From a virus: a stretch of 43,164 nucleotides of DNA. Positions 9,351 to 43,164 of the stretch are shown in pieces. Numbering within the stretch: the stretch's first letter is position 1; every line of letters starts with the position of its first letter. Under the pieces are notes generated by a model. That model ran no database searches. It saw only the letters and a list, made by a program, of their open reading frames with translations, and was not told where the DNA came from. The translations under genes were made by a program, and so were the position numbers. The stretch lies in the IMG/VR virus record IMGVR_UViG_3300019360_000006, positions 1 to 43,164 of that record. One strand, written 5' to 3'.

Positions 9351-11567
9351 ATGGCTGATAATAATACGCTTACACATGTCTTTGTAAGCGCTAAGGCTGA
9401 TGATCCTAACTCCAGCTTAATTCGACCGAGTAGTTGGAACAAAGAACATCTATTTGCTGGAGGTAGTCCATTATACTATCTTATGTGGGATAGCACTAAG
9501 AGCGATAAGGTATCCTTTGATAATATATGGGCTAGATTTCCTTATATAGACTTAAGTAAACCTCCTTATAGTATAGATGCTACAGGTGGGAACGCTTCGA
9601 GTAATACAGCAGCTATACAGAGCGCTATAGACACGAGATTAGCTGCTGGTACTCCAGGTACTTTAGCACTACCACCAGGACTTATAGAGACAAATAATAC
9701 TCTAAATATACCTGGTGTTTACTCAGCCTCTAGCTTTCCTGAGGTAGAAGCACCTACTCTTAGACTTATAGGAAGTGGTAAGAGAAGTACCGTTATTGTG
9801 CCTCACTTTACTCAGGTACTTCAGACGACTAGGAAAGCTGCGTTTATACTAGGAGGAGGTATAGCTTTACAAGACTTTACTATCATGAATCCTCGTATCT
9901 ATAGTAGCATAGTACCTGCTTACGCTTCGTATAACACTCTATACTATGGCCTAGTATTTAGGGATGTAAGTTGGGGTATTAGTGTCATAAATATAGATAT
10001 ACGCTACTTTCATGTACCTGTGAGTATAGGATGTATAAAGAAAATAAATACTTCTACATATGAACTAGAGCCTACGAGCGGAGGTAGTGCTTTCCCTTCT
10101 ACAGATATAGCGCAAGGAAGCTTCTATAACTGTAGGATAAGCGCTTATACAAGAGAGTTTGAGGATAGTACACTAAATGCTGCTACTCAGAATAATGCAA
10201 ATGGTACGAATTTAAGTCAAGGAGTAGGGCATACTACTGACCTTACTAGTGCAGTTTTTAGCGATGGATCATATGGATTAGAAGTAGGAGCGCAGAGTAC
10301 AGTTAGCTTTGACTTCACCCGATGTACTATAGAGAATCTGAATGCTCGTACTAATGGTACTGTCAGAACTCATGCACCTGGAGACTTAGTATTTGATAAG
10401 TCTTTACTAAGTGCTCCTCCTCCTAATGGTGATAGCAGTTTTATACACTTTGAGAATAGTGTTGCTTCGGGAAGTATAGTAAATTATGATAAGTGCTATC
10501 TTATAGGAGGTATTTACTCTGGAAGAACAGCTTATGGTGTAGTAGGTATAAATCAATGTAGTGGGGAGAATCATATAGCTACAGAGTATCCGAGCGGAAC
10601 TGTGGTACTATTCAGGCCATTAGGAAGCGATGATGATTTGCAAGTAGAACTGAGAATTAGAGGGTTAGATATAGGCAGAGGCTCAGGTACGAAGATAATT
10701 AGATTAAGCAGTCTTGCGCAGTCTAGTGTAGTAGGGTGCCCTTATGGTACTCAAGCTGCATATGTCAATATCCGGAAATATAGACTGGAAGATATAACTG
10801 GATTAGGATTAGTACAATTTGGCCATGAGAATGTCTTGTATGGGCATAGGCTAGAGCAAGCGCAGAGTATTCTTCCAAGCGTTGCTGCTAGCCTGGCTGG
10901 CAAGGCTGTCGATCCATTATTTCTCTCGCAGAAGGTATACCTCAGGCCCAATGGAGAAGGGAATACAGGCTTCACTATAGGGCTGTATAAAGAGGGCACC
11001 TGGTTCCTTCAAGCTAACGCAGGAGCGAATAATATCTTAGCCCAAATAGCTCCAGTAGACTTAGGTACAGCTTATAATATCAGCTTTGATCTTTATGTAC
11101 AGATGGTACCTACTCACTTAGTATCTGAACTCAATAATGAACTCAGCTTTGTGGTCAGATTCTATAACTCTAGTAAGAACTTCGTAGCTGCAAATCCTAT
11201 CATGTTAGGGAGCGCTACAGCTACTTTTAACTATAGTCTTATAGTAGACCAGCAGGTAGTACGATTCACGCAGTATCATATCATACCTCCTACTGGTGCT
11301 GCTTATATAGGTGTAGTAGCTCAGGCTAATCAGAATGTAGCGAGGACTGCTATTATAGCGTATGGGAATATACGGATATGGCCTGCACCTACTGAGGAGG
11401 TAGTAGACCTAGTGCTAATACCTGAGTTTGAGGCTTCTAGTGTACCTACAACAGGGACGTGGAATACAAATGACTTTGTAAAGAAGTCCCCTAATGCTGC
11501 AGGTACACCTGTAGGATGGTATTGTACTACTGCTCCTAGTACCTTTACTGCAGGAGCTAATCTGTAG
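9351..11567 (+). CDS. Tailspike candidate with a parallel beta-helix
   Basis: A 738-aa protein. The N-terminal 85 residues form a particle-binding-like segment (HVFVSAKADDPNSS, SSWNKEHLF). Residues about 88-130 carry a pectate-lyase-type opening ('SNTAAIQSAIDTRLAAG' then 'LALPPGLI'), followed by a long stretch of short beta strands, Asn and Gly turns (about 140-480) typical of a right-handed beta-helix. The last 230 residues look like a beta-sandwich carbohydrate-binding domain. Such proteins recognise and often cleave host surface polysaccharide. Catalytic residues cannot be assigned by eye. Confidence 0.7.
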   Translation: MADNNTLTHVFVSAKADDPNSSLIRPSSWNKEHLFAGGSPLYYLMWDSTKSDKVSFDNIWARFPYIDLSKPPYSIDATGGNASSNTAAIQSAIDTRLAAGTPGTLALPPGLIETNNTLNIPGVYSASSFPEVEAPTLRLIGSGKRSTVIVPHFTQVLQTTRKAAFILGGGIALQDFTIMNPRIYSSIVPAYASYNTLYYGLVFRDVSWGISVINIDIRYFHVPVSIGCIKKINTSTYELEPTSGGSAFPSTDIAQGSFYNCRISAYTREFEDSTLNAATQNNANGTNLSQGVGHTTDLTSAVFSDGSYGLEVGAQSTVSFDFTRCTIENLNARTNGTVRTHAPGDLVFDKSLLSAPPPNGDSSFIHFENSVASGSIVNYDKCYLIGGIYSGRTAYGVVGINQCSGENHIATEYPSGTVVLFRPLGSDDDLQVELRIRGLDIGRGSGTKIIRLSSLAQSSVVGCPYGTQAAYVNIRKYRLEDITGLGLVQFGHENVLYGHRLEQAQSILPSVAASLAGKAVDPLFLSQKVYLRPNGEGNTGFTIGLYKEGTWFLQANAGANNILAQIAPVDLGTAYNISFDLYVQMVPTHLVSELNNELSFVVRFYNSSKNFVAANPIMLGSATATFNYSLIVDQQVVRFTQYHIIPPTGAAYIGVVAQANQNVARTAIIAYGNIRIWPAPTEEVVDLVLIPEFEASSVPTTGTWNTNDFVKKSPNAAGTPVGWYCTTAPSTFTAGANL

Positions 11568-11584
11568 TATAGCGCTCTATACTA
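11565..11584. terminator. Hairpin between convergent operons
   Basis: TAGTATAG and CTATACTA pair around a CGCT loop, starting at the tailspike stop codon. A second 7-bp stem (AGATACT 11585-11591 with AGTATCT 11603-11609) follows. Together they separate the rightward virion operon from the leftward replication operon. No strong U-tract on either strand, so bidirectional terminator is a tentative call. Confidence 0.5.
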
Positions 11585-11613: not shown

Positions 11614-11994
11614 TCATACCTGAGATGTCCTTTCTATACCTAAGCTAACTCTCTTACGAGTACGAGAAGCTAAAGACTCCATTGCTGATACTATAGAGTC
11701 TAAGGCTTCTTGATTCTCAGAGCATGCATAAATACCTGATTGGAAGCCTTCTAGTCTATCGCGTACTATGGCTAAGAGAGCTGTATTACTTAGGCCATTA
11801 ACACCTACTTCGTTAATAAGACCATTCTGGAATTCTATACTTGTCTTAAAAGTATAGCTATAAGGTTTGCTATCTTTTAGCCATGATACCATGTAGTGGT
11901 GACAAGCATTACCCTGTCCAGGTTTATCTAATACCTCAATTGTTAGAGCTTTATTTAGACCATTTACTTGATGTGTAGTAATGAGTCTTGACAT
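11614..11994 (-). CDS. Tad1-like cyclic-nucleotide sponge (anti-Thoeris / anti-CBASS candidate)
   Basis: A 126-aa protein. Its layout matches the Tad1 side of the Acb2/Tad1 hairpin family: HQVNGLN and IEVLDKPGQGNACHHY in the N-terminal beta part, 'IEFQNGLINEVGVNGLS' at about 53-69, then the helical hairpin 'LLAIVRDRLEGFQSG...CSENQEAL' and a basic 'RTRKRVSLGIE' tail. From memory, Clostridium Tad1 binds gcADPR with F82/N92 and cyclic di/trinucleotides with R109/R113; here F84/N94 and R111/R115 have the same spacing. Tad1 traps TIR- or CBASS-made signals and blocks abortive immunity. It is the last gene of the leftward operon, with AGGAG seven bases before the ATG. The family call is by pattern, not by a search. 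Confidence 0.7.
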   Translation of the reverse strand: MSRLITTHQVNGLNKALTIEVLDKPGQGNACHHYMVSWLKDSKPYSYTFKTSIEFQNGLINEVGVNGLSNTALLAIVRDRLEGFQSGIYACSENQEALDSIVSAMESLASRTRKRVSLGIERTSQV

Positions 11995-12064
11995 GTACTG
12001 TCTCCTGTTAGCGTGTAGGACTAAGTAAATACTCTTAAGATATCTCTGTTATACCTCCTTTGTA

Positions 12065-13111
12065 TTATATCTCCGCACCATTAGAGAAGTACATATCATA
12101 CCATCTAGGGAACTGCTCAGCTAAAGCTACAGCTATCTTAACAGCTACTTCTCTCGTCTCTTCTTGTACATCCTTAGCTAATCTAAGCTTAAGGAATTGT
12201 GCCCATCTATGTAGAGTACCTGTCATGTAAAACTCAGTGTACATAGATTGAGGGAGCATACTGCGTAACTGTTCAGGAGCTATATGACTCTCAACTAGCT
12301 GAATATACTGCTGTCTACAAGCGTTATGCTCTGTAAACTGTTCATTCTTGAGGACTGTCTGTAACTCATTACTAGCTAAACCTGTGCTTCCTTGCTTTAT
12401 ATACCTACCTTTTCGTACTCTCCATCTATCTATACTATAGAACTCAGGTAGTTCATTTACGTATCTTCTAGATACTTCATTATAGACGAAGCTCTCTCCT
12501 TCTACATATAAGTTAGAGTATGAAAAGCCCACTTGAGATGTACGTACCTGTCGAGCTATAAAGATAGGTATTTTAATGAGTAAGGTAGCGCAAGCTATAT
12601 TCCAGAACTCATGGTATATGAGATAATTTTCGTCTAACCGTGTCATCTCATGTCCATAAGTCATGGAAGGGTACTCACTCTTAGACTTATATATCGCATC
12701 GTATGATACAGGATATAGCTCTGTTATACAGTCATGTATAAAGTCTCTATGAGCTGTAGTAGGGAGTAGATGTAAGTTATTTATCCAACTATATAGACTA
12801 CCTTTGATGTAGTCTATGTCTATATCCTGTTCTATGTACTCAAATCCTCCTCTAGTTATGTGCTTATAGAATTGAAGTTCATTCTGTATGGTAGACCATT
12901 TAATACTAAAGTAGAGCCTAGAATGAGCAAAGGGAGTCCAGTGGTTATGCTTAGCTAAGTAGTACAGAAGCTTAGTATCTTCTTTACTTAGCTCATGTGT
13001 ACCTGTAGTATTAGGCACATAAGCAGATTTCTTATGTAGCGATACTCTAGCTGCATTAACTATGCCTAAGTCTGTATTAATCTCTTTACCAGGTATAAAT
13101 GTTACTTGCAT
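12065..13111 (-). CDS. thyX: FAD-dependent thymidylate synthase ThyX
   Basis: Makes dTMP from dUMP using methylene-THF and FAD. Recognisable parts are NAARVSLHKKS (18-29), 'KLLYYLAKHNHWTPFAHSRL' (47-66, the N-terminal ThyX helix and HxxPF-type motif), a 'NEVSRRYV' signature at 211-218 and 'RWAQFLKLRLAKDVQEETRE' near the C-terminus (dUMP and FAD contacts). At 348 aa it is about 100 longer than typical ThyX. The RHRxxS-type motif reads RQVRTSQVGFSYS and is separated from NEVSRRY by about 13 extra residues. It sits between the Tad1-like gene and the RecA-like ATPase gene in the leftward operon. Confidence 0.9.
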   Translation of the reverse strand: MQVTFIPGKEINTDLGIVNAARVSLHKKSAYVPNTTGTHELSKEDTKLLYYLAKHNHWTPFAHSRLYFSIKWSTIQNELQFYKHITRGGFEYIEQDIDIDYIKGSLYSWINNLHLLPTTAHRDFIHDCITELYPVSYDAIYKSKSEYPSMTYGHEMTRLDENYLIYHEFWNIACATLLIKIPIFIARQVRTSQVGFSYSNLYVEGESFVYNEVSRRYVNELPEFYSIDRWRVRKGRYIKQGSTGLASNELQTVLKNEQFTEHNACRQQYIQLVESHIAPEQLRSMLPQSMYTEFYMTGTLHRWAQFLKLRLAKDVQEETREVAVKIAVALAEQFPRWYDMYFSNGAEI

Positions 13112-13131: not shown

Positions 13132-13980
13132 TTATAGTATCTTAGCTTTAGATATACCTAAAGCCTTCTCATAGTCAAATAAACTATCTGTACCTAAGCT
13201 ATCTCCTAACATACTACTTGGTGTAAGCCAAGCTCCTGTATTAGGATTTCTCTCTAGGTTAATCTCCTTCTTAGAAGTTATCTTATTCTTCTCTAGCACT
13301 AGTACATTACCTGCTAGAGTAAGCATATTCCCACAGAGTCCTGCAAATCCCTTGTACCCGCTACCTGCATTTACTCCTCTCGTTGTGGTAGCATTAGGAT
13401 GATGTATAAGTAGGAAGTGTACTCTACTGTAAGTAGACCTTTCTCCTTCTCTCTTTATTTCTAGACTACATATCTTCTCCATACCTCCTAGTATCCTAGA
13501 CATACAGGTCTTAGTATTTAAGTCACCGTCAGTAAGAGCATTAAGACAGTCAAAGACTACAAATGTAAAGGGTACATGCTTTAATACTCTGTGCAAGCTC
13601 CCTGGAGTATCATCCTCTGTGTAAGTACCCCATACTAGACTATGCATATACTCTAGCCACCATGATTCGTCTAAGCATCCTTTAGGTACTTCATGCATAG
13701 TCCATGCATAGGACTCGCCTGCTAAGAGTCTTACCTGCTCTCTCCATTCTACTAAGCCTGCATCTACTTGGATATAGAGACAATTATGCTTAGTAGTAGG
13801 AAAGCCTAAGAAGTCCTTACCCTGCTGTAAGCTATCTACGAGTTGTATAGCCATCATACTCTTACCTACTCCTGGAGGACCAACAAAGTACGTCCATTGA
13901 CCAGGACTAAGAAGTCCCTCTACTATCCATTCTATCTTAGACTCAGACCTAGCTAAGTTACGGAACTGTTCTATTCTCAT
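13132..13980 (-). CDS. RecA-like (AAA_25/RepA-type) ATPase, replication helicase candidate
   Basis: A 282-aa P-loop ATPase. Walker A is GPPGVGKS at 34-41, preceded by 'WIVEGLLSPGQWTYFV', and Walker B is FTFVVFDCLNAL with D144. An HFLLIHHPNA sensor-like strand and a GSGYKGFAG loop follow, the usual order in the RepA/AAA_25 branch of RecA-like proteins, which act as hexameric helicases or loaders. No separate primase or DnaB-type helicase is visible, so this is the best candidate for the replicative motor. It overlaps the upstream gene by four bases (ATGA). Confidence 0.8.
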   Translation of the reverse strand: MRIEQFRNLARSESKIEWIVEGLLSPGQWTYFVGPPGVGKSMMAIQLVDSLQQGKDFLGFPTTKHNCLYIQVDAGLVEWREQVRLLAGESYAWTMHEVPKGCLDESWWLEYMHSLVWGTYTEDDTPGSLHRVLKHVPFTFVVFDCLNALTDGDLNTKTCMSRILGGMEKICSLEIKREGERSTYSRVHFLLIHHPNATTTRGVNAGSGYKGFAGLCGNMLTLAGNVLVLEKNKITSKKEINLERNPNTGAWLTPSSMLGDSLGTDSLFDYEKALGISKAKIL

Positions 13981-14613: not shown

Positions 14614-15795
14614 CTAGACCATACTAGTTGGCCTTCTAGTTATCTTATATGTAGCTGTTATCATAGCGCTATTATTTCTACATCTTAGCTCCCTCTGTGT
14701 GAGCTTCTTATACTCTTCTAGCACTTGGGCCTCTTCTTCTCTCCTACCTGAGTCTGTATTAGACTCATAAGGAAAGCACCACTTTAGTGAGTCATGCTGA
14801 TTGTGTATGATATATGAGTTAGGAAACTTTCTTTGTAGTAATATACATGACTCATTAATATAACTTGCTACAGTACCTTGTATGATATGATTGAACAATT
14901 CCTTAGCTGTCTCTTGATTACTAAAGTAGGCATGTCTCTTCCCTCCATAAAGAGTACGTGAGATTTTATCTCTCCTGCACTTCTCCATTACTACAGCTTT
15001 ACGCTTCTGTATCTCTATATTCGATTCTACAAAACTAACAGCTAGAGCTTCATAATCAGGAGGTACTAAAGTACCTGCACTATCTTCAATAAGATAGCTT
15101 TGTATATTAGGTATAGAATATACGAACATAGGATTGTACACGAGATTATCATACACTCTATTAGGAAGTCTAGGCTTATAAGTACCTTTAAGTATCTGTA
15201 CATAGAAGTATTGCCCTCCATAGGTGAAGTTCTTACTCATAGTTCTACGAGTATCATCTTTGCCTTGCCACTTAACTTTTAGTCTCCATTCTTCATCTTC
15301 CAGTCCTGTATGAGGATCATAAGGACTTGAGGGATAGGGTAGATTAAATAGATTACAAGTAACCCTAGTATGAATATCTCTACCATCTCGTAACTCCTCT
15401 AGTCTGTCTCTCCAAGCTAACACTAAGCAATAAATAATATGCTCTACTGTATTGAGGTCATGCTCTATCCAGTATGTATCTGGGTCAGGTACTATACACT
15501 CTCGTACTGACCAACACTCTACAGTCTTCTCATGGTGGTACTTAGGACATTCTGGGTTAATACACTTCTTAGGGAAGTTACTCAGTAGCGGGTTGATGTA
15601 AGACCATCTCCCGCTAGATTGAGTGGGAAGAATAGTAGGAGCTATTCTCTCTTTAGTACGTAGAGAAGCTATAAAGGTATTACGTATCATAGCTATTCTA
15701 CTATACTCTAACCTTAGCTCTGCTATCTGTCTCTGGATAGTAGAGTCTGACTTGGATATATACTTAGTTAGAGAGTCTCTGCTTATACTAGGCAT
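14614..15795 (-). CDS. Family A DNA polymerase, C-terminal polymerase subunit (split gene)
   Basis: A 393-aa protein holding the fingers and palm of a PolI-type enzyme. Residues 62-76 match the GR...NP...NFP stretch before motif A. Motif A is IEHDLNTVEH with D113. Motif B is R184-x3-K188-x3-Y192-x3-Y196 (RRTMSKNFTYGGQY). Motif C is HDS at 334-336. Y192 aligns with Klenow F762, as Tyr526 does in T7 polymerase. A Cys/His cluster (C78, C83, H87, H88, C94, C100) is inserted before motif A and may bind zinc. The N-terminal palm and exonuclease are encoded upstream at 15932-17542. AAGGA precedes the ATG, so this is a gene in its own right. Confidence 0.85.
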   Translation of the reverse strand: MPSISRDSLTKYISKSDSTIQRQIAELRLEYSRIAMIRNTFIASLRTKERIAPTILPTQSSGRWSYINPLLSNFPKKCINPECPKYHHEKTVECWSVRECIVPDPDTYWIEHDLNTVEHIIYCLVLAWRDRLEELRDGRDIHTRVTCNLFNLPYPSSPYDPHTGLEDEEWRLKVKWQGKDDTRRTMSKNFTYGGQYFYVQILKGTYKPRLPNRVYDNLVYNPMFVYSIPNIQSYLIEDSAGTLVPPDYEALAVSFVESNIEIQKRKAVVMEKCRRDKISRTLYGGKRHAYFSNQETAKELFNHIIQGTVASYINESCILLQRKFPNSYIIHNQHDSLKWCFPYESNTDSGRREEEAQVLEEYKKLTQRELRCRNNSAMITATYKITRRPTSMV

Positions 15796-15797
15796 AT

Positions 15798-15914
15798 CTA
15801 GTCCTTAGATAGTTCACAAGCTATGTAGTATGAATCACACACGATAGCACAGTCCTTTATTAGGGAAGTCTCTTCCTGCTCTGCTGTGGATAAAAGTACC
15901 TTTATATACGGCAC
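15798..15914 (-). CDS. Small ORF between the two polymerase genes
   Basis: A 38-aa frame from a GTG at 15914 to a TAG two bases before the next ATG, a spacing typical of coupled genes. The peptide looks protein-like (VPYIKVLLSTAEQEETSLIK, then a segment with three Cys). The frame stays open further upstream into the end of the UDG-exonuclease gene, in the -1 frame relative to it, but holds no ATG there. It may therefore be a short gene with a weak or unusual start, or the end of a frameshift extension. No obvious Shine-Dalgarno for the GTG. Confidence 0.4.
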   Translation of the reverse strand: MPYIKVLLSTAEQEETSLIKDCAIVCDSYYIACELSKD

Positions 15915-15931
15915 ATGAGCTCTGATGTAGT

Positions 15932-17542
15932 TTACTCCATTGCTAATAAGAGCTTAGTCTGTTCTATAAGAGCATCTACTTTAGCTTGACCTACTGCTCT
16001 CTTTTTAGTAGCCTTCTTGCTAGACGTTCTCTTAGCCTTCTCTATAGGCTTAGTAACTCTTCTTCTCTGCTTAATAGTTTTAGGGTCACTAAACATATCG
16101 TTGTCATATAAAGCATGACTAAGCTGAGTATGGCTGGCTATATTGAAGTGAGGATTATTAGTTACTAATTTAGCTCTCTCTATTATACTAGCCATCTCCT
16201 TATCTAATAGATCAGCTATACGCTGTACTCTCTCTTGCCATACTTGGACTCCTTTACTCTGGAATCTACTAATTATGTGTAAGAGAGGTTGTCTCCTTAG
16301 CTTATACTCATTCCAACTAAGGCTATCTTTCTTAAACTCACTCAACAAAGCTCTCCATACATGATTAAGTGTAGTATCAGCATCAAGTCCTGCATAGAGG
16401 TATTTAAGGTTACTATCTGTAGTAGTTCTCAGATGCTTATGTCTATTATATCTCCCATACTTAGAGAGCATATAGTCTAAACTATTAGGTTCTCCTGTCC
16501 ATAAGGTACTATGAGCTAACATACAGTCTTCCATAGTAATAGTAGATAAGTCAGTATCACGTACCATAGGTATGAAGTGAGGTAAGTCTACAAGACCATT
16601 CTGAGTTATGAGAGTAAGACTAGAAGGTATATTATAAAGCTCAGAGGTTATATGGCTATCTACTACATAAATATTCCCGGCTATATCAGCTAAAGACCAC
16701 ATTTCTAATCTGTTATTATCTGTAGGATCATATTCCGTGTCGAAGCCTATGTAATTAGGTATACTCGAAGGTACATAGTTTATCTTAATCTCAGGTAGTG
16801 TAGTGGGCCATTCTCCTCGTACTAGTCGACCAAAGCGTATGAAATCATATAGAGTAGCATGATAAAGCTTAGGTTGCTTAGGAAGAGAAGCTATATGTAG
16901 GGTAGGGAATATCTTAGTAGCTTTAGACTCTAGAGGATTATAGTAGTCTGTTATACCATAGAGAGTAGGCTTAATGCCTGTACTAGATTGAGCACTTGTA
17001 CTCTGTATAGACTCTCTTCCTATACACCATCCTCGCCAGTCTGTTATGCTCTCTTGTCCTGTTAAGGAGTAAAGACTAATGCCTCCCATAGCTAGAATAT
17101 ACTGAGTAGTAGAAGGTATCTTTAAATGAGTATGAGTACAATACTGTATAGCTTCTTTAAGCATCTTTACGCTAATACCATTCACAGGCTTATTACTACC
17201 TACACTAGGAAGCTCATTAGAGTTATAAGGTCTACACTTAATGACATTAGCTCTACTTACTTTAGTATAGTCTAGTTGAGTAAGAGGCCAGAACTCTCTC
17301 TGTAGCCATTGTCCTGATAAGCCTATAAGAGGCTGAGGTACTATAGAACTACACTCTTCTACCTTTCTACCTTGAGAGTAGTAAGACTTTTCTATCTTTC
17401 TGCCTGACTCTTCATACTCACCTGGATTCTGAGCTAAGATAAGTACGCTAGACTCAGGTACTATATAATCAGGAGTTATATAGTTAGAGAGTGTATAAAA
17501 GGGACAATTAGTACAGCTAGAAGGCTTGAGAATAGGAGGCAT
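15932..17542 (-). CDS. Uracil-DNA glycosylase domain fused to polymerase 3'-5' exonuclease (N-terminal polymerase half)
   Basis: A 536-aa protein. Residues 1-240 look like a family-4-type UDG: CTNC (C10, C13), ILAQNPGEYEE (35-45) in place of GEAPG, IKCRP with C103, and C135, the four Cys expected for a 4Fe-4S cluster; a TLHIASL motif stands where HPS is usual. Residues 262-400 form a DnaQ-like exonuclease: Exo I DTE (268-270), Exo II QNGLVDLPHF, Exo III Y383-x3-D387. Residues 405-490 match the start of the PolI palm ('KGVQVWQERVQRIADLL', 'FNIASHTQLSHALY'). The protein then ends in a Lys/Arg-rich tail, and the rest of the polymerase is a separate gene. AAGGA precedes the ATG. Confidence 0.82.
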   Translation of the reverse strand: MPPILKPSSCTNCPFYTLSNYITPDYIVPESSVLILAQNPGEYEESGRKIEKSYYSQGRKVEECSSIVPQPLIGLSGQWLQREFWPLTQLDYTKVSRANVIKCRPYNSNELPSVGSNKPVNGISVKMLKEAIQYCTHTHLKIPSTTQYILAMGGISLYSLTGQESITDWRGWCIGRESIQSTSAQSSTGIKPTLYGITDYYNPLESKATKIFPTLHIASLPKQPKLYHATLYDFIRFGRLVRGEWPTTLPEIKINYVPSSIPNYIGFDTEYDPTDNNRLEMWSLADIAGNIYVVDSHITSELYNIPSSLTLITQNGLVDLPHFIPMVRDTDLSTITMEDCMLAHSTLWTGEPNSLDYMLSKYGRYNRHKHLRTTTDSNLKYLYAGLDADTTLNHVWRALLSEFKKDSLSWNEYKLRRQPLLHIISRFQSKGVQVWQERVQRIADLLDKEMASIIERAKLVTNNPHFNIASHTQLSHALYDNDMFSDPKTIKQRRRVTKPIEKAKRTSSKKATKKRAVGQAKVDALIEQTKLLLAME

Positions 17543-18674: not shown

Positions 18675-19181
18675 TTATATCTCCTTAGGTAATGTTATAG
18701 TAGGCTCTTTAACTACTTTTACGAAGGTGCTTAACCCAGGAATATTAGAAAGGGTTTTAAGAGACCTCAGATAGCTCTCAAACCCTTTCGTGTCGAGCTG
18801 TAAGCATATAGTATGGGTTATACACCATTCTAGCGCAGTAGTAGAGTTATATTCATACGTAATTTTATCTTTTTCCTTTACTCCTCTATAGATATCTTTA
18901 GTACCAGGATCACTCTCATAGAGTGCTAGACTTATACGCTTAATCTTACTTTCTATCTCATGTAGACTAGCTAAGGCTCCTTTCCCTAAGGTAAGGTATA
19001 TCTCATTATCCTTCTCGAATAGAGCTTTGTGCTCCTTATAAGTTAAGGAATACTCTTCTACTACCTTCCTTTGCTCACTCAGTTGAGCTAAGAGTATATC
19101 TAACTCACGATACATACTGTCCTTATGTAAGTGGCCTATAGCTTGGTCTAACTGTACTTCTTTAAGATCATCTAAGTTCAT
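18675..19181 (-). CDS. Conserved phage coiled-coil protein next to ERF
   Basis: A 168-aa protein. Residues 1-90 are a helical coiled coil (LDILLAQLSEQRKVVEEYSL and on); residues 95-168 follow a pattern that I have seen in phage proteins beside recombination genes: a 'GV..KDK..YEY' strand, 'ALEWCITHTICLQLDTKGFE' and a C-terminal FVKVVKEPTITLPKEI. Its start overlaps the ERF stop by four bases, so it probably works with ERF or guards DNA ends. No specific activity is known to me. Confidence 0.6.
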   Translation of the reverse strand: MNLDDLKEVQLDQAIGHLHKDSMYRELDILLAQLSEQRKVVEEYSLTYKEHKALFEKDNEIYLTLGKGALASLHEIESKIKRISLALYESDPGTKDIYRGVKEKDKITYEYNSTTALEWCITHTICLQLDTKGFESYLRSLKTLSNIPGLSTFVKVVKEPTITLPKEI

Positions 19182-19957
19182 ATCTGTCTCTCCCTAAGCC
19201 TTACTATTACTCTAGATGCATAGTCCTGAGTAAGCTTCTCAATAGAATCTACCTTAGCAGCTTTGAGTAACTGATCTTTAGACAGTCCTTGTTCTCCTAG
19301 TAATGTAAGTATCTCTTCCATTTGATTTTCTGTGATATATACTGTAGAATTATGTGTAACTCCTTCTACTCTAGAGTCAGTATCATCATCTCCTGTAAGT
19401 ATACCGAAGCCATTACAGAACGCATATCTCTTAGCAAAGGTAATAGCTGCTGCTACTACTTGAGTGTTTGACATAGCGTTAGTCTTTGTGCCGAGAGGTA
19501 CTTGCATAGTAGAGACTTCAGAATGTCCTGCTGTATGCTTAGTGGTACAGGTTACTCTTACACTATTGTCTAGAGTCTCAGTATTGATAGCATAACTTAG
19601 CCCATACTCTTTGAGTAGATGACGTACCTGAGATACTATAGAGTCTATAGGTGCATAGCTGTACAAGAGCTGCCCAGATGTAGACCAGACCTCTTTAGTC
19701 TTCTTAATGACAGGACATATAGATTGAAAGTGAGACATAGCTGTGTCGTATTGCTCTTTAGCATGTTCTGCTCGTAACTCTCTACGCATAGCAAGGAGTC
19801 TTTCTAAGGCTTCTACACTTACTTGCCTATCTATAGCCATAGCTATGAGAGTATCTACTTGACTCTCTGGGAGTGTAGGTAAGTTCTTAGTAGGTAAAGT
19901 ATCTTCTCTACTAGACTTAGTAGGTACTACTTCATTAGAGATTACATCTGGGAGCAT
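19178..19957 (-). CDS. ERF-family single-strand annealing recombinase
   Basis: A 259-aa protein. The ERF core is clear: AKEQYDTAMSHFQSICPVIK (about 79-98), LLYSYAPIDSIVSQVRHLLK (about 110-129), 'YGLSYAINTE', 'GTKTNAMSNTQVVAAAITFA' and 'KRYAFCNGFGILTGDDDTDS', the last typical of ERF proteins. Such proteins bind single-stranded DNA and anneal complementary strands, supporting recombination and, in circularly permuted phages, genome circularisation or concatemers. A short helical tail follows. It heads the leftward operon. Confidence 0.9.
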   Translation of the reverse strand: MLPDVISNEVVPTKSSREDTLPTKNLPTLPESQVDTLIAMAIDRQVSVEALERLLAMRRELRAEHAKEQYDTAMSHFQSICPVIKKTKEVWSTSGQLLYSYAPIDSIVSQVRHLLKEYGLSYAINTETLDNSVRVTCTTKHTAGHSEVSTMQVPLGTKTNAMSNTQVVAAAITFAKRYAFCNGFGILTGDDDTDSRVEGVTHNSTVYITENQMEEILTLLGEQGLSKDQLLKAAKVDSIEKLTQDYASRVIVRLRERQI

Positions 19958-20108: not shown

Positions 20109-20142
20109 TAAAAAGAGAGGAGGTAAGCTATGCCTACCTCCT
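20109..20142 (-). terminator. Rho-independent terminator of the 20605 gene
   Basis: On the minus strand, AGGAGGTA and TACCTCCT form an 8-bp stem around GGCATAGCT, followed by CTC and TTTTT. A second imperfect stem (GCTTGC/GCAAGC with GACAG/CTGTC inside, 20148-20174) overlaps the stop codon of the gene. The gene at 20165 is thus its own transcription unit. Confidence 0.75.
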
Positions 20143-20164: not shown

Positions 20165-20605
20165 CTATGCAAGCATTTCATCAATAATAGCCTCTACGAG
20201 TCCTACCTTATCATTGGTACTCATAAAGCTATTGTATGATACGCTCTTTTCATTGCAGAGGAGCTGAAGCTTGTCCTCAGCAAGTGAGTTAATAAATGCT
20301 CTGAGACCATCACGAGGGGTGATAACATTTGGTCTACGAGTGCGTACCCCTGTACACAGTTCGACTAACCTACTCTTAAGATCATCTACGTGCTCTGACC
20401 ATTGCGCTATTTTGAGTATGAGCCTAGCTCTAGATTTCCATCCATAGAGCTTATTACTAAATGATCTAGTAAGACTTTCGGTGCACTCTACAGGGAAGTA
20501 TTTTACGTATTCTTCGTAGTTAAAATCATCTACATCGCTTCCCTGCTCTTCATCTGTACCATTCTGAGTAGGTTCATCCAATACCACAACGGCTTCGTCT
20601 ACCAT
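20165..20605 (-). CDS. Hypothetical 146-aa protein, separate early unit
   Basis: An acidic N-terminus (PTQNGTDEEQGSDVDDFNYE) followed by a helical body with a basic middle (SNKLYGWKSRARLILKIAQW) and a C-terminal helix. It has a strong AAGGAGGAAAT ribosome site and its own terminator, and faces the rightward gene at 20700 across a palindromic operator, as regulators often do. No helix-turn-helix is recognised. GTG/GAG-rich codons resemble the accessory block more than the operon downstream. Confidence 0.65.
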   Translation of the reverse strand: MVDEAVVVLDEPTQNGTDEEQGSDVDDFNYEEYVKYFPVECTESLTRSFSNKLYGWKSRARLILKIAQWSEHVDDLKSRLVELCTGVRTRRPNVITPRDGLRAFINSLAEDKLQLLCNEKSVSYNSFMSTNDKVGLVEAIIDEMLA

Positions 20606-20642: not shown

Positions 20643-20699
20643 TTCTACTGCATTCCAGCTAATTGTAGAGACTTTTTATGCCCATGTCAAGGAGATTTT

Positions 20700-41289: not shown

Positions 41290-43164
41290 ATGGGTACTTA
41301 TAGACCTAATCTTCTTAGTGGTATAGAATCCTCTGACCCTCTCTTAGCAAACCCTGAGTATGCACTTACAAGGAGTGAAGGCTTAGGAGGACTAACAGGC
41401 TTTAGTCCTTCTATACAGAGCCCTTCCCTACAGGATATATCTTTCGTACAGCGTATAGAGAGTCCTAGTGTAGTAGAACCTTTTACTAGACACCCTAAGC
41501 AATTAGCACCTCCTGCTCGCTCTCTTAGCCCTTCTCTTGGTAATATACTCTTAGCTTCTCTAGGTGGCGGAGGTCCAGTTAGAACTCTATTAGAGAGAAC
41601 ACGTAGAGAAGCCTTAGCACCTGTGATAGAAGATTTCCAGACAGGCCTAAATGAAGCTATTAAGACAGGCGACTTAGATACAGCTAAATCTTATCTTCAG
41701 CAGTTTAGTAAATATGCTCATCAGACAGAGCAAGCTAAAACATTTTACGAACAAGGTATCAAAGACTTTGTATTACTGAATAACGATATAGCACGTAAAG
41801 ACAAGAAAATAGACACGTACTTACAGACTGTCTCACCTAGTAGTGATACGTATAAGATACTCATGGCTGCTAGAGGGGCTAATCATCTTAAGGCTGATGA
41901 TATAGATAAGTTTGTAGAGCAGAGTAAGACTAAGATAGATGTGAGAGAAGGGAGTTACGCTAAGACAAGACCTCTTACAGAGCAAGTAGAATTAGGGCAA
42001 CTTCCATCTACACTTACTGTAGATAAGCTGCCTGAACCTCTACGTAAGGCTATAAATGCCTATAATACTAGTTCTAGCGTACAGAGAGGGCAACTTCCTA
42101 GTCTTACTGAGCAGCAGTATGTAGATAGAATAAATAAGATACAGTTAGGGAAAGCAGATGCCTTTGATATAGCAGGATTTGAGGCTGTAAATAGAGGATT
42201 AAGCCAAGTAGCTCAGAATATTAATATAGGTACAGCTCTCCCTGCTGGTACGAGATTAGAGAGAGGGAATATAACATTAGGTCAAGCAGGAGATATAACA
42301 GGATTGGAGTATCCTTCTGGTCAGGTGTCTCAAGGTGTAGGGCCTCAACTGCCTGGTGCTACTCAAGTACCTAGCCAAGGTCAAGTACCTAGTAGACCTT
42401 CTTCTAGACTCTCTCAGCCTAATTATACTGTTAATCCTCAATTAGATGAAGCAGGAAAGCAAGTAATTATGAAGGAGAGAGAGAGATTAGCTGCTTCTAA
42501 TGATCCTCAGAAGGATGCTAAGCTTGCCCAGATAGATGCTGTATTAGCTAGTCCTGCAGGAAGTGTAAGTACGCCTATATCTACTACGCCTATAGAGGTT
42601 AGACCTAGCCAAGTAAGTGGTACTCTTACAGGTACTCCTGAAGAAAGAGCTTTGCAAGAATCTACTGATAAGAGACTAACTATAGAAGCTGAGAGAGTAA
42701 AAAGAGATGAGCTAGCACGGAGAGAAGCTTTACGGGAGAGAGAAGTTATACCGGGTAATCCTACTTTTTATAGACTAGATGAGAGAGGTAATCTTATACG
42801 TAAGTCTAACCTCTCGCCTAATGAAGCTGAAAGACACTATCAGACTACGAATGCAGAAGATATACGAGAATTGAATGCCTATGCTAAGCTCAAGTCAGAG
42901 GGAGAAGCGCTTAAGGATAGCTTACGTAAGTCTCCTCCTGAAGTAACTAACGGATTCCTAAAAGCACTGGCTTATACTTATGGTACTGGTATCTCTCTTC
43001 CTATACGCATACCTGCTATAGGTGTACCAGTTACTGTACAAGTTCCTGGAGCAGGAGCAACTACTTTAACGAGAGATCAAGTTATAATGTATCAGAAGTT
43101 AGCTAGCTTCGGTCAGGCTACAGAGAGATATATGAATCCTACTGGTCATCCGAGTAGACAAGTA
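41290..43164 (+). CDS. 5' part of 876-aa virion protein spanning the contig junction
   Basis: The frame is open from the ATG at 41290 to the end of the window with no stop, and continues at base 1 to 879, giving 876 aa. This part has a Pro/Ser-rich start, a helical section with 'RTLLERTRREALAPVIEDFQ' and 'GDLDTAKSYLQQFSKYAHQT', a Gly/Pro/Gln-rich linker (about 330-385), a charged coiled-coil-like section (about 390-500), and a hydrophobic stretch near 'YTYGTGISLPIRIPAIGVPV'. Size, helix content and position suggest an internal ejection protein or tail-channel component. Confidence 0.8.
   Translation, partial: MGTYRPNLLSGIESSDPLLANPEYALTRSEGLGGLTGFSPSIQSPSLQDISFVQRIESPSVVEPFTRHPKQLAPPARSLSPSLGNILLASLGGGGPVRTLLERTRREALAPVIEDFQTGLNEAIKTGDLDTAKSYLQQFSKYAHQTEQAKTFYEQGIKDFVLLNNDIARKDKKIDTYLQTVSPSSDTYKILMAARGANHLKADDIDKFVEQSKTKIDVREGSYAKTRPLTEQVELGQLPSTLTVDKLPEPLRKAINAYNTSSSVQRGQLPSLTEQQYVDRINKIQLGKADAFDIAGFEAVNRGLSQVAQNINIGTALPAGTRLERGNITLGQAGDITGLEYPSGQVSQGVGPQLPGATQVPSQGQVPSRPSSRLSQPNYTVNPQLDEAGKQVIMKERERLAASNDPQKDAKLAQIDAVLASPAGSVSTPISTTPIEVRPSQVSGTLTGTPEERALQESTDKRLTIEAERVKRDELARREALREREVIPGNPTFYRLDERGNLIRKSNLSPNEAERHYQTTNAEDIRELNAYAKLKSEGEALKDSLRKSPPEVTNGFLKALAYTYGTGISLPIRIPAIGVPVTVQVPGAGATTLTRDQVIMYQKLASFGQATERYMNPTGHPSRQV
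43042..43164. repeat. Terminal direct repeat, right copy
   Basis: Identical to 1-123, over 123 bases. It closes the circular map; see the left copy. Confidence 0.95.

Follow-up and report, generated by a model that had tools for sequence, protein, structure and literature searches.

The IMG/VR record IMGVR_UViG_3300019360_000006 comes from an uncultured bacterial virus and its 43,164 bases, analysed at full length, are referred to here as the window. As a perfect, direct repeat of 123 bp is present at both ends (1–123 and 43042–43164), the record is probably a complete genome. A run of genes on the minus strand begins at position 20605 and proceeds leftward as a replication operon; it includes, in this order, ERF, the two parts of a family-A polymerase, an AAA ATPase, ThyX and, as the final gene, a Tad1 homologue (Table 1). 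The preliminary description, made from the sequence letters, had placed this gene at the end of a replication operon and this holds: ThyX, AAA_25, the two PolA pieces and ERF all lie upstream on the same strand. The neighbour that is convergent with the Tad1 homologue is a plus-strand, tail/spike-type ORF (9351–11567).

Table 1. Positions of the Tad1 homologue, its ligand-site codons and the surrounding features in the window; fractions are counts among 35 homologues.
Feature	Position	Strand	Remark
Tad1 homologue, β1–4 and α1–α2 hairpin	11614..11994	-	126 aa, ATG start
Codon F84	11743..11745	-	cbTad1 F82; F in 34/35, Y in phiKZ gp184
Codon N94	11713..11715	-	cbTad1 N92; N in 34/35
Codons R111–R115	11650..11664	-	R111 is cbTad1 R109 (34/35), R115 is cbTad1 R113 (35/35)
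Codon R122, C-terminal tail	11629..11631	-	G in 31/35
AGGAG ribosome-binding site	12002..12006	-	7 nt 5' of the Tad1-homologue ATG, read from sequence
Hairpin, 8 bp, TAGTATAG-CGCT-CTATACTA	11565..11584	.	between the convergent Tad1-homologue and tail/spike-type genes
ThyX thymidylate synthase	12065..13111	-	Pfam Thy1, 6.5e-30; adjoins the Tad1 homologue upstream
AAA_25 ATPase	13132-13980	-	upstream of ThyX
Family-A DNA polymerase, two ORFs	15932-17542 and 14614-15795	-	
ERF-type annealing protein	19178-19957	-	
Sigma-70-like site, TTGACA-17-TACAAT	20662..20690	-	best of the region; just 5' of the first gene of the operon

The stability of the hairpin that separates the two convergent genes is not significant (z −1.9 and −1.5) and it is not followed by a run of T; it is at most a weak, bidirectional terminator. 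The single terminator-like hairpin of the leftward operon is located at 20118–20142 (minus strand), directly 3' of the first gene, and is a possible attenuator. Promoter-like matches overall are no commoner than in shuffled DNA, so the sigma-70-like site is suggestive only. The N-terminal polymerase ORF (within 14614–17542, minus strand) has a weak, UDG-like match with an E of 0.0025. The polymerase is split in the same way in two relatives, L037 and L125, which makes the split a trait of the lineage and not the product of an assembly error.

Tad1 is a small phage protein that absorbs the bacterial alarm molecules made during infection, and it assembles as a hexamer comprising three dimers. 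The molecules that it sequesters are gcADPR, cyclic dinucleotides (CDNs) and cyclic trinucleotides (CTNs) (PMC12043709, PMC12657218). When the window protein was compared as a single sequence to all PDB chains using phmmer, the matches were solely to Tad1 entries and phiKZ gp184. The highest was to the Tad1 domain of gp184 (8y6v_I, 1.5e-13), followed by CmTad1 (8kbb, 3.3e-12) and cbTad1, a Clostridium botulinum prophage protein (7uav, 1.5e-10). When the window protein was combined with four IMG/VR relatives in a profile, cbTad1 was reached at 4.6e-20. In the reverse direction, a profile of cbTad1, CmTad1, phiKZ gp184 and the homologue from Bacillus phage Goe8 scored the window protein at 87 bits (E 9e-26), whereas the best of 1000 shuffles of that protein reached 6.4 bits, which excludes a chance resemblance to Tad1. 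The window protein also matches phrog_2428 at 1.6e-24; this and the two further PHROG matches, 22140 and 23843, are all without functional annotation, and a search of NCBIfam returned zero matches. Homologues are present in 119 records of cultured phages by tblastn and at 32 IMG/VR loci in the family searches. No prophage copies were found in genome contigs using exact peptide patterns, which distant relatives could escape.

The preliminary description had looked to the Acb2/Tad1 hairpin family for recognition of the protein, and here the outcome was negative. PF24729 (Acb2_Tad1_hairpin), a model of 58 positions with a curated cut-off of 27 bits, has zero match to the window protein at E ≤ 10. 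The positive controls scored 34.8 bits (cbTad1) and 28.3 bits (CmTad1), and two of the homologues were also above the cut-off (L033, 33.3 bits; L022, 27.8 bits). As other clear homologues are under-scored (L015, 22.0 bits) or missed altogether (L036), the negative result reflects the limited sensitivity of the model, and a PF24729 score is not a defining trait of Tad1. Annotation relying solely on Pfam would leave the window gene hypothetical, the current hairpin model being blind to some real members of the family.

The structure of the window protein was predicted as a monomer by AlphaFold, without templates and using the protein and 23 IMG/VR relatives as input, resulting in a model with a pLDDT of 85.5 and a pTM of 0.74. 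In the model, four strands (residues 3–5, 18–21, 33–39 and 48–55) are followed by two long helices (70–86 and 92–117). This is the arrangement described for Tad1, in which an N-terminal, antiparallel sheet of β1–β4 precedes two long, C-terminal helices (PMC12043709). The best match in the PDB by Foldseek is 7uaw, which is cbTad1 bound to 1''-2' gcADPR, with a TM of 0.81 and 2.8 Å over 122 columns. All 20 matches at E < 0.001 are to cbTad1 or CmTad1, and the next has an E of 0.27. Among predicted viral structures the same family was matched, and two of these entries are named 'Acb2/Tad1 hairpin domain-containing'. Sequence, profile and predicted fold therefore agree on the Tad1-like identity that had been suggested at the outset, with the overlay on 7uaw giving the Tad1 β–α fold, and the window protein is a divergent Tad1 of an already known family.

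The divergence is best seen in comparison to the proteins of known structure. The window protein shares with cbTad1 (PDB 7uav, 7uaw, 8smd and 8kbe) the fold, the length, the equivalents of F82, N92, R109 and R113, and the GxGxAxHxY and FQxG motifs. The two differ in sequence, with an identity of about 28% in the structural alignment, in the second loop, which is HG in cbTad1 and NG in the window protein, and in the C-terminal tail, where G120 of cbTad1 corresponds to R122. CmTad1 (PDB 8kbb, 8kbc and 8kbd) is similar in fold (TM 0.71–0.74), in the RTxxR pattern and in the GIExT tail, but the identity is about 30% and it has FQDSPY where the window protein has FQSGIY. The two N-terminal motifs that had been singled out from the sequence, IEVLDKPGQGNACHHY and FQNG, are both present in the window protein.

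The same description had matched F84/N94 and R111/R115 to Tad1, and all four residues align with their cbTad1 counterparts as listed in Table 1; in CmTad1 the equivalents are F90, N100, R117 and R121. We take F82 and N92 of cbTad1 to be contacts for gcADPR, with F82 also being a residue of the CDN pocket, and R109 and R113 to be contacts for cyclic trinucleotides. Conserved loops, the two helices and the C-terminal tail together build the pockets of Tad1 for gcADPR and CDNs, six in number, and CTNs bind at sites of their own (PMC12043709). In the tail, which has the pattern E-G-T, the window protein retains E121 and T123 and has R122 in place of the glycine. A second departure is T71, at a position that is E in 31/35 homologues.

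Since the glycine that R122 displaces in the C-terminal tail is close to invariant, the ligand range of the window protein could be different. The protein might have a true Tad1 fold but now bind the standard Thoeris signal poorly, acting mainly against CBASS or on another nucleotide signal, and this would be a variant of the sponge explanation and not an exclusive alternative to it. We regard such a shift as unlikely, since the counterparts of the presumed gcADPR pocket residues, F84 and N94, are intact, and the rest of the predicted fold matches that of gcADPR-bound cbTad1. In its favour, R122 in the pocket tail and T71 are off consensus whereas the trinucleotide site retains both R111 and R115, and the range of cyclic dinucleotides is known to differ among Tad1 homologues (PMC12043709). 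It is very improbable that the changed pocket tail enables the window Tad1 to capture a nucleotide signal from outside the known Thoeris/CBASS set.

The nearest homologue found, with 57% identity, is from an IMG/VR contig (3300037705_000022, L006/L002), where it resides in another gene neighbourhood with a DNA methylase nearby. In the tree, the window protein is sister to this homologue (97/82) within a five-member branch (96/92), with the deep order unresolved. The ThyX relatives found are mostly too distant for synteny, and the close-kin contigs 3300045740_000206 and 3300032770_000513, in which Tad1 had no match, end before or at the position of ThyX, short of the place of Tad1. Elsewhere, the Tad1 homologue of Agrobacterium phage OLIVR5 is among recombination genes and that of Bacillus phage Goe8 is between PolA and RecA. 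In uncultured phages it is also found after TerL (L004 and, directly, L003) or between head and tail genes (L005/L031), and these positions in structural modules would suit late expression or packaging into the virion. The mobility of the neighbourhood fits an accessory, counter-defence gene.

The highest single match of the window protein is phiKZ gp184 (46.5% identity over residues 53–123). At 230 aa, this virion protein is extended by a long region at the N-terminus, whereas the window protein stands alone and its gene lies amid those for replication. The phiKZ Tad1 is injected (PMC10449902, PMC13282480) and blocks both CBASS and Thoeris (PMC13282480). The window Tad1 could also be packaged and injected instead of being newly made early in infection, a course for which there is precedent in gp184, a chain of the virion structure (8y6v_I), in the relatives placed within structural modules, and in one relative that is fused to a fragment of a capsid protein. 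We nevertheless consider it quite improbable, as the window protein is without any N-terminal extension and its gene follows ThyX in a replication operon, with the tail genes on the other strand.

Fusions of Tad1 are found in jumbo phages and involve two types of partner. On a contig of 253,740 bp (IMGVR_UViG_3300047320_000285), a single ORF of 375 aa (L028:4260–5384, plus strand) comprises a capsid piece and a C-terminal Tad1 domain. The N-terminal part is a fragment of the phiKZ-type major capsid protein (PF25620, E 4e-25, profile positions 143–243), and the contig has a separate, full-length gene for this protein at 132148–134064. The fusion suggests a capsid-tethered sponge. In the second type, which comes from two separate phage records, an N-terminal, cyclophilin-type peptidyl-prolyl isomerase domain (PF00160, E about 1e-44) precedes the Tad1 domain (Burkholderia phage FLC9 gp131, L127:3374–4390; and L029:4404–5387).

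Taken together, we place at roughly 85% the probability that the window gene encodes a stand-alone protein with Tad1-type sponge function, and hold any particular ligand with much less confidence. Ligand binding, oligomeric state and counter-defence are read across from characterised Tad1 proteins, and homology to these suggests that the phage may evade Thoeris and/or CBASS. In the proposed mechanism, the window Tad1 would be made early in infection, together with the replication proteins, and three dimers of it would assemble into a hexamer. In the six pockets, gcADPR or a dinucleotide would be bound by F84 and N94; trinucleotides would be bound at the trimer interfaces, in two sites made up by R111 and R115. 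The protein would thereby sequester TIR-made gcADPR of Thoeris and, probably, the cyclic di- and trinucleotides of CBASS as well. With the signals sequestered, ThsA of Thoeris and the CBASS effectors would stay off in the host. A protein that has kept the fold, lost the sponge activity and taken on another role is scarcely credible: the substitutions that could be held to favour it are R122 and T71 only, and there is no sign of decay, as the ORF is intact, the ribosome-binding site is good and the core residues are all kept across a divergent family.

An uncultured lineage of phages with small genomes thus gains a divergent Tad1. Its R122 is a natural variant for probing the part that the C-terminal tail plays in the choice of ligand and, with this residue in the tail, the ligand range needs to be measured and not assumed. 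The fusions to cyclophilin and to a capsid fragment bear on how virions may carry Tad1. With Tad1 domains occurring in replication operons as well as within structural modules and fusions, sponges that are delivered by the virion and sponges that are newly made become a testable contrast.
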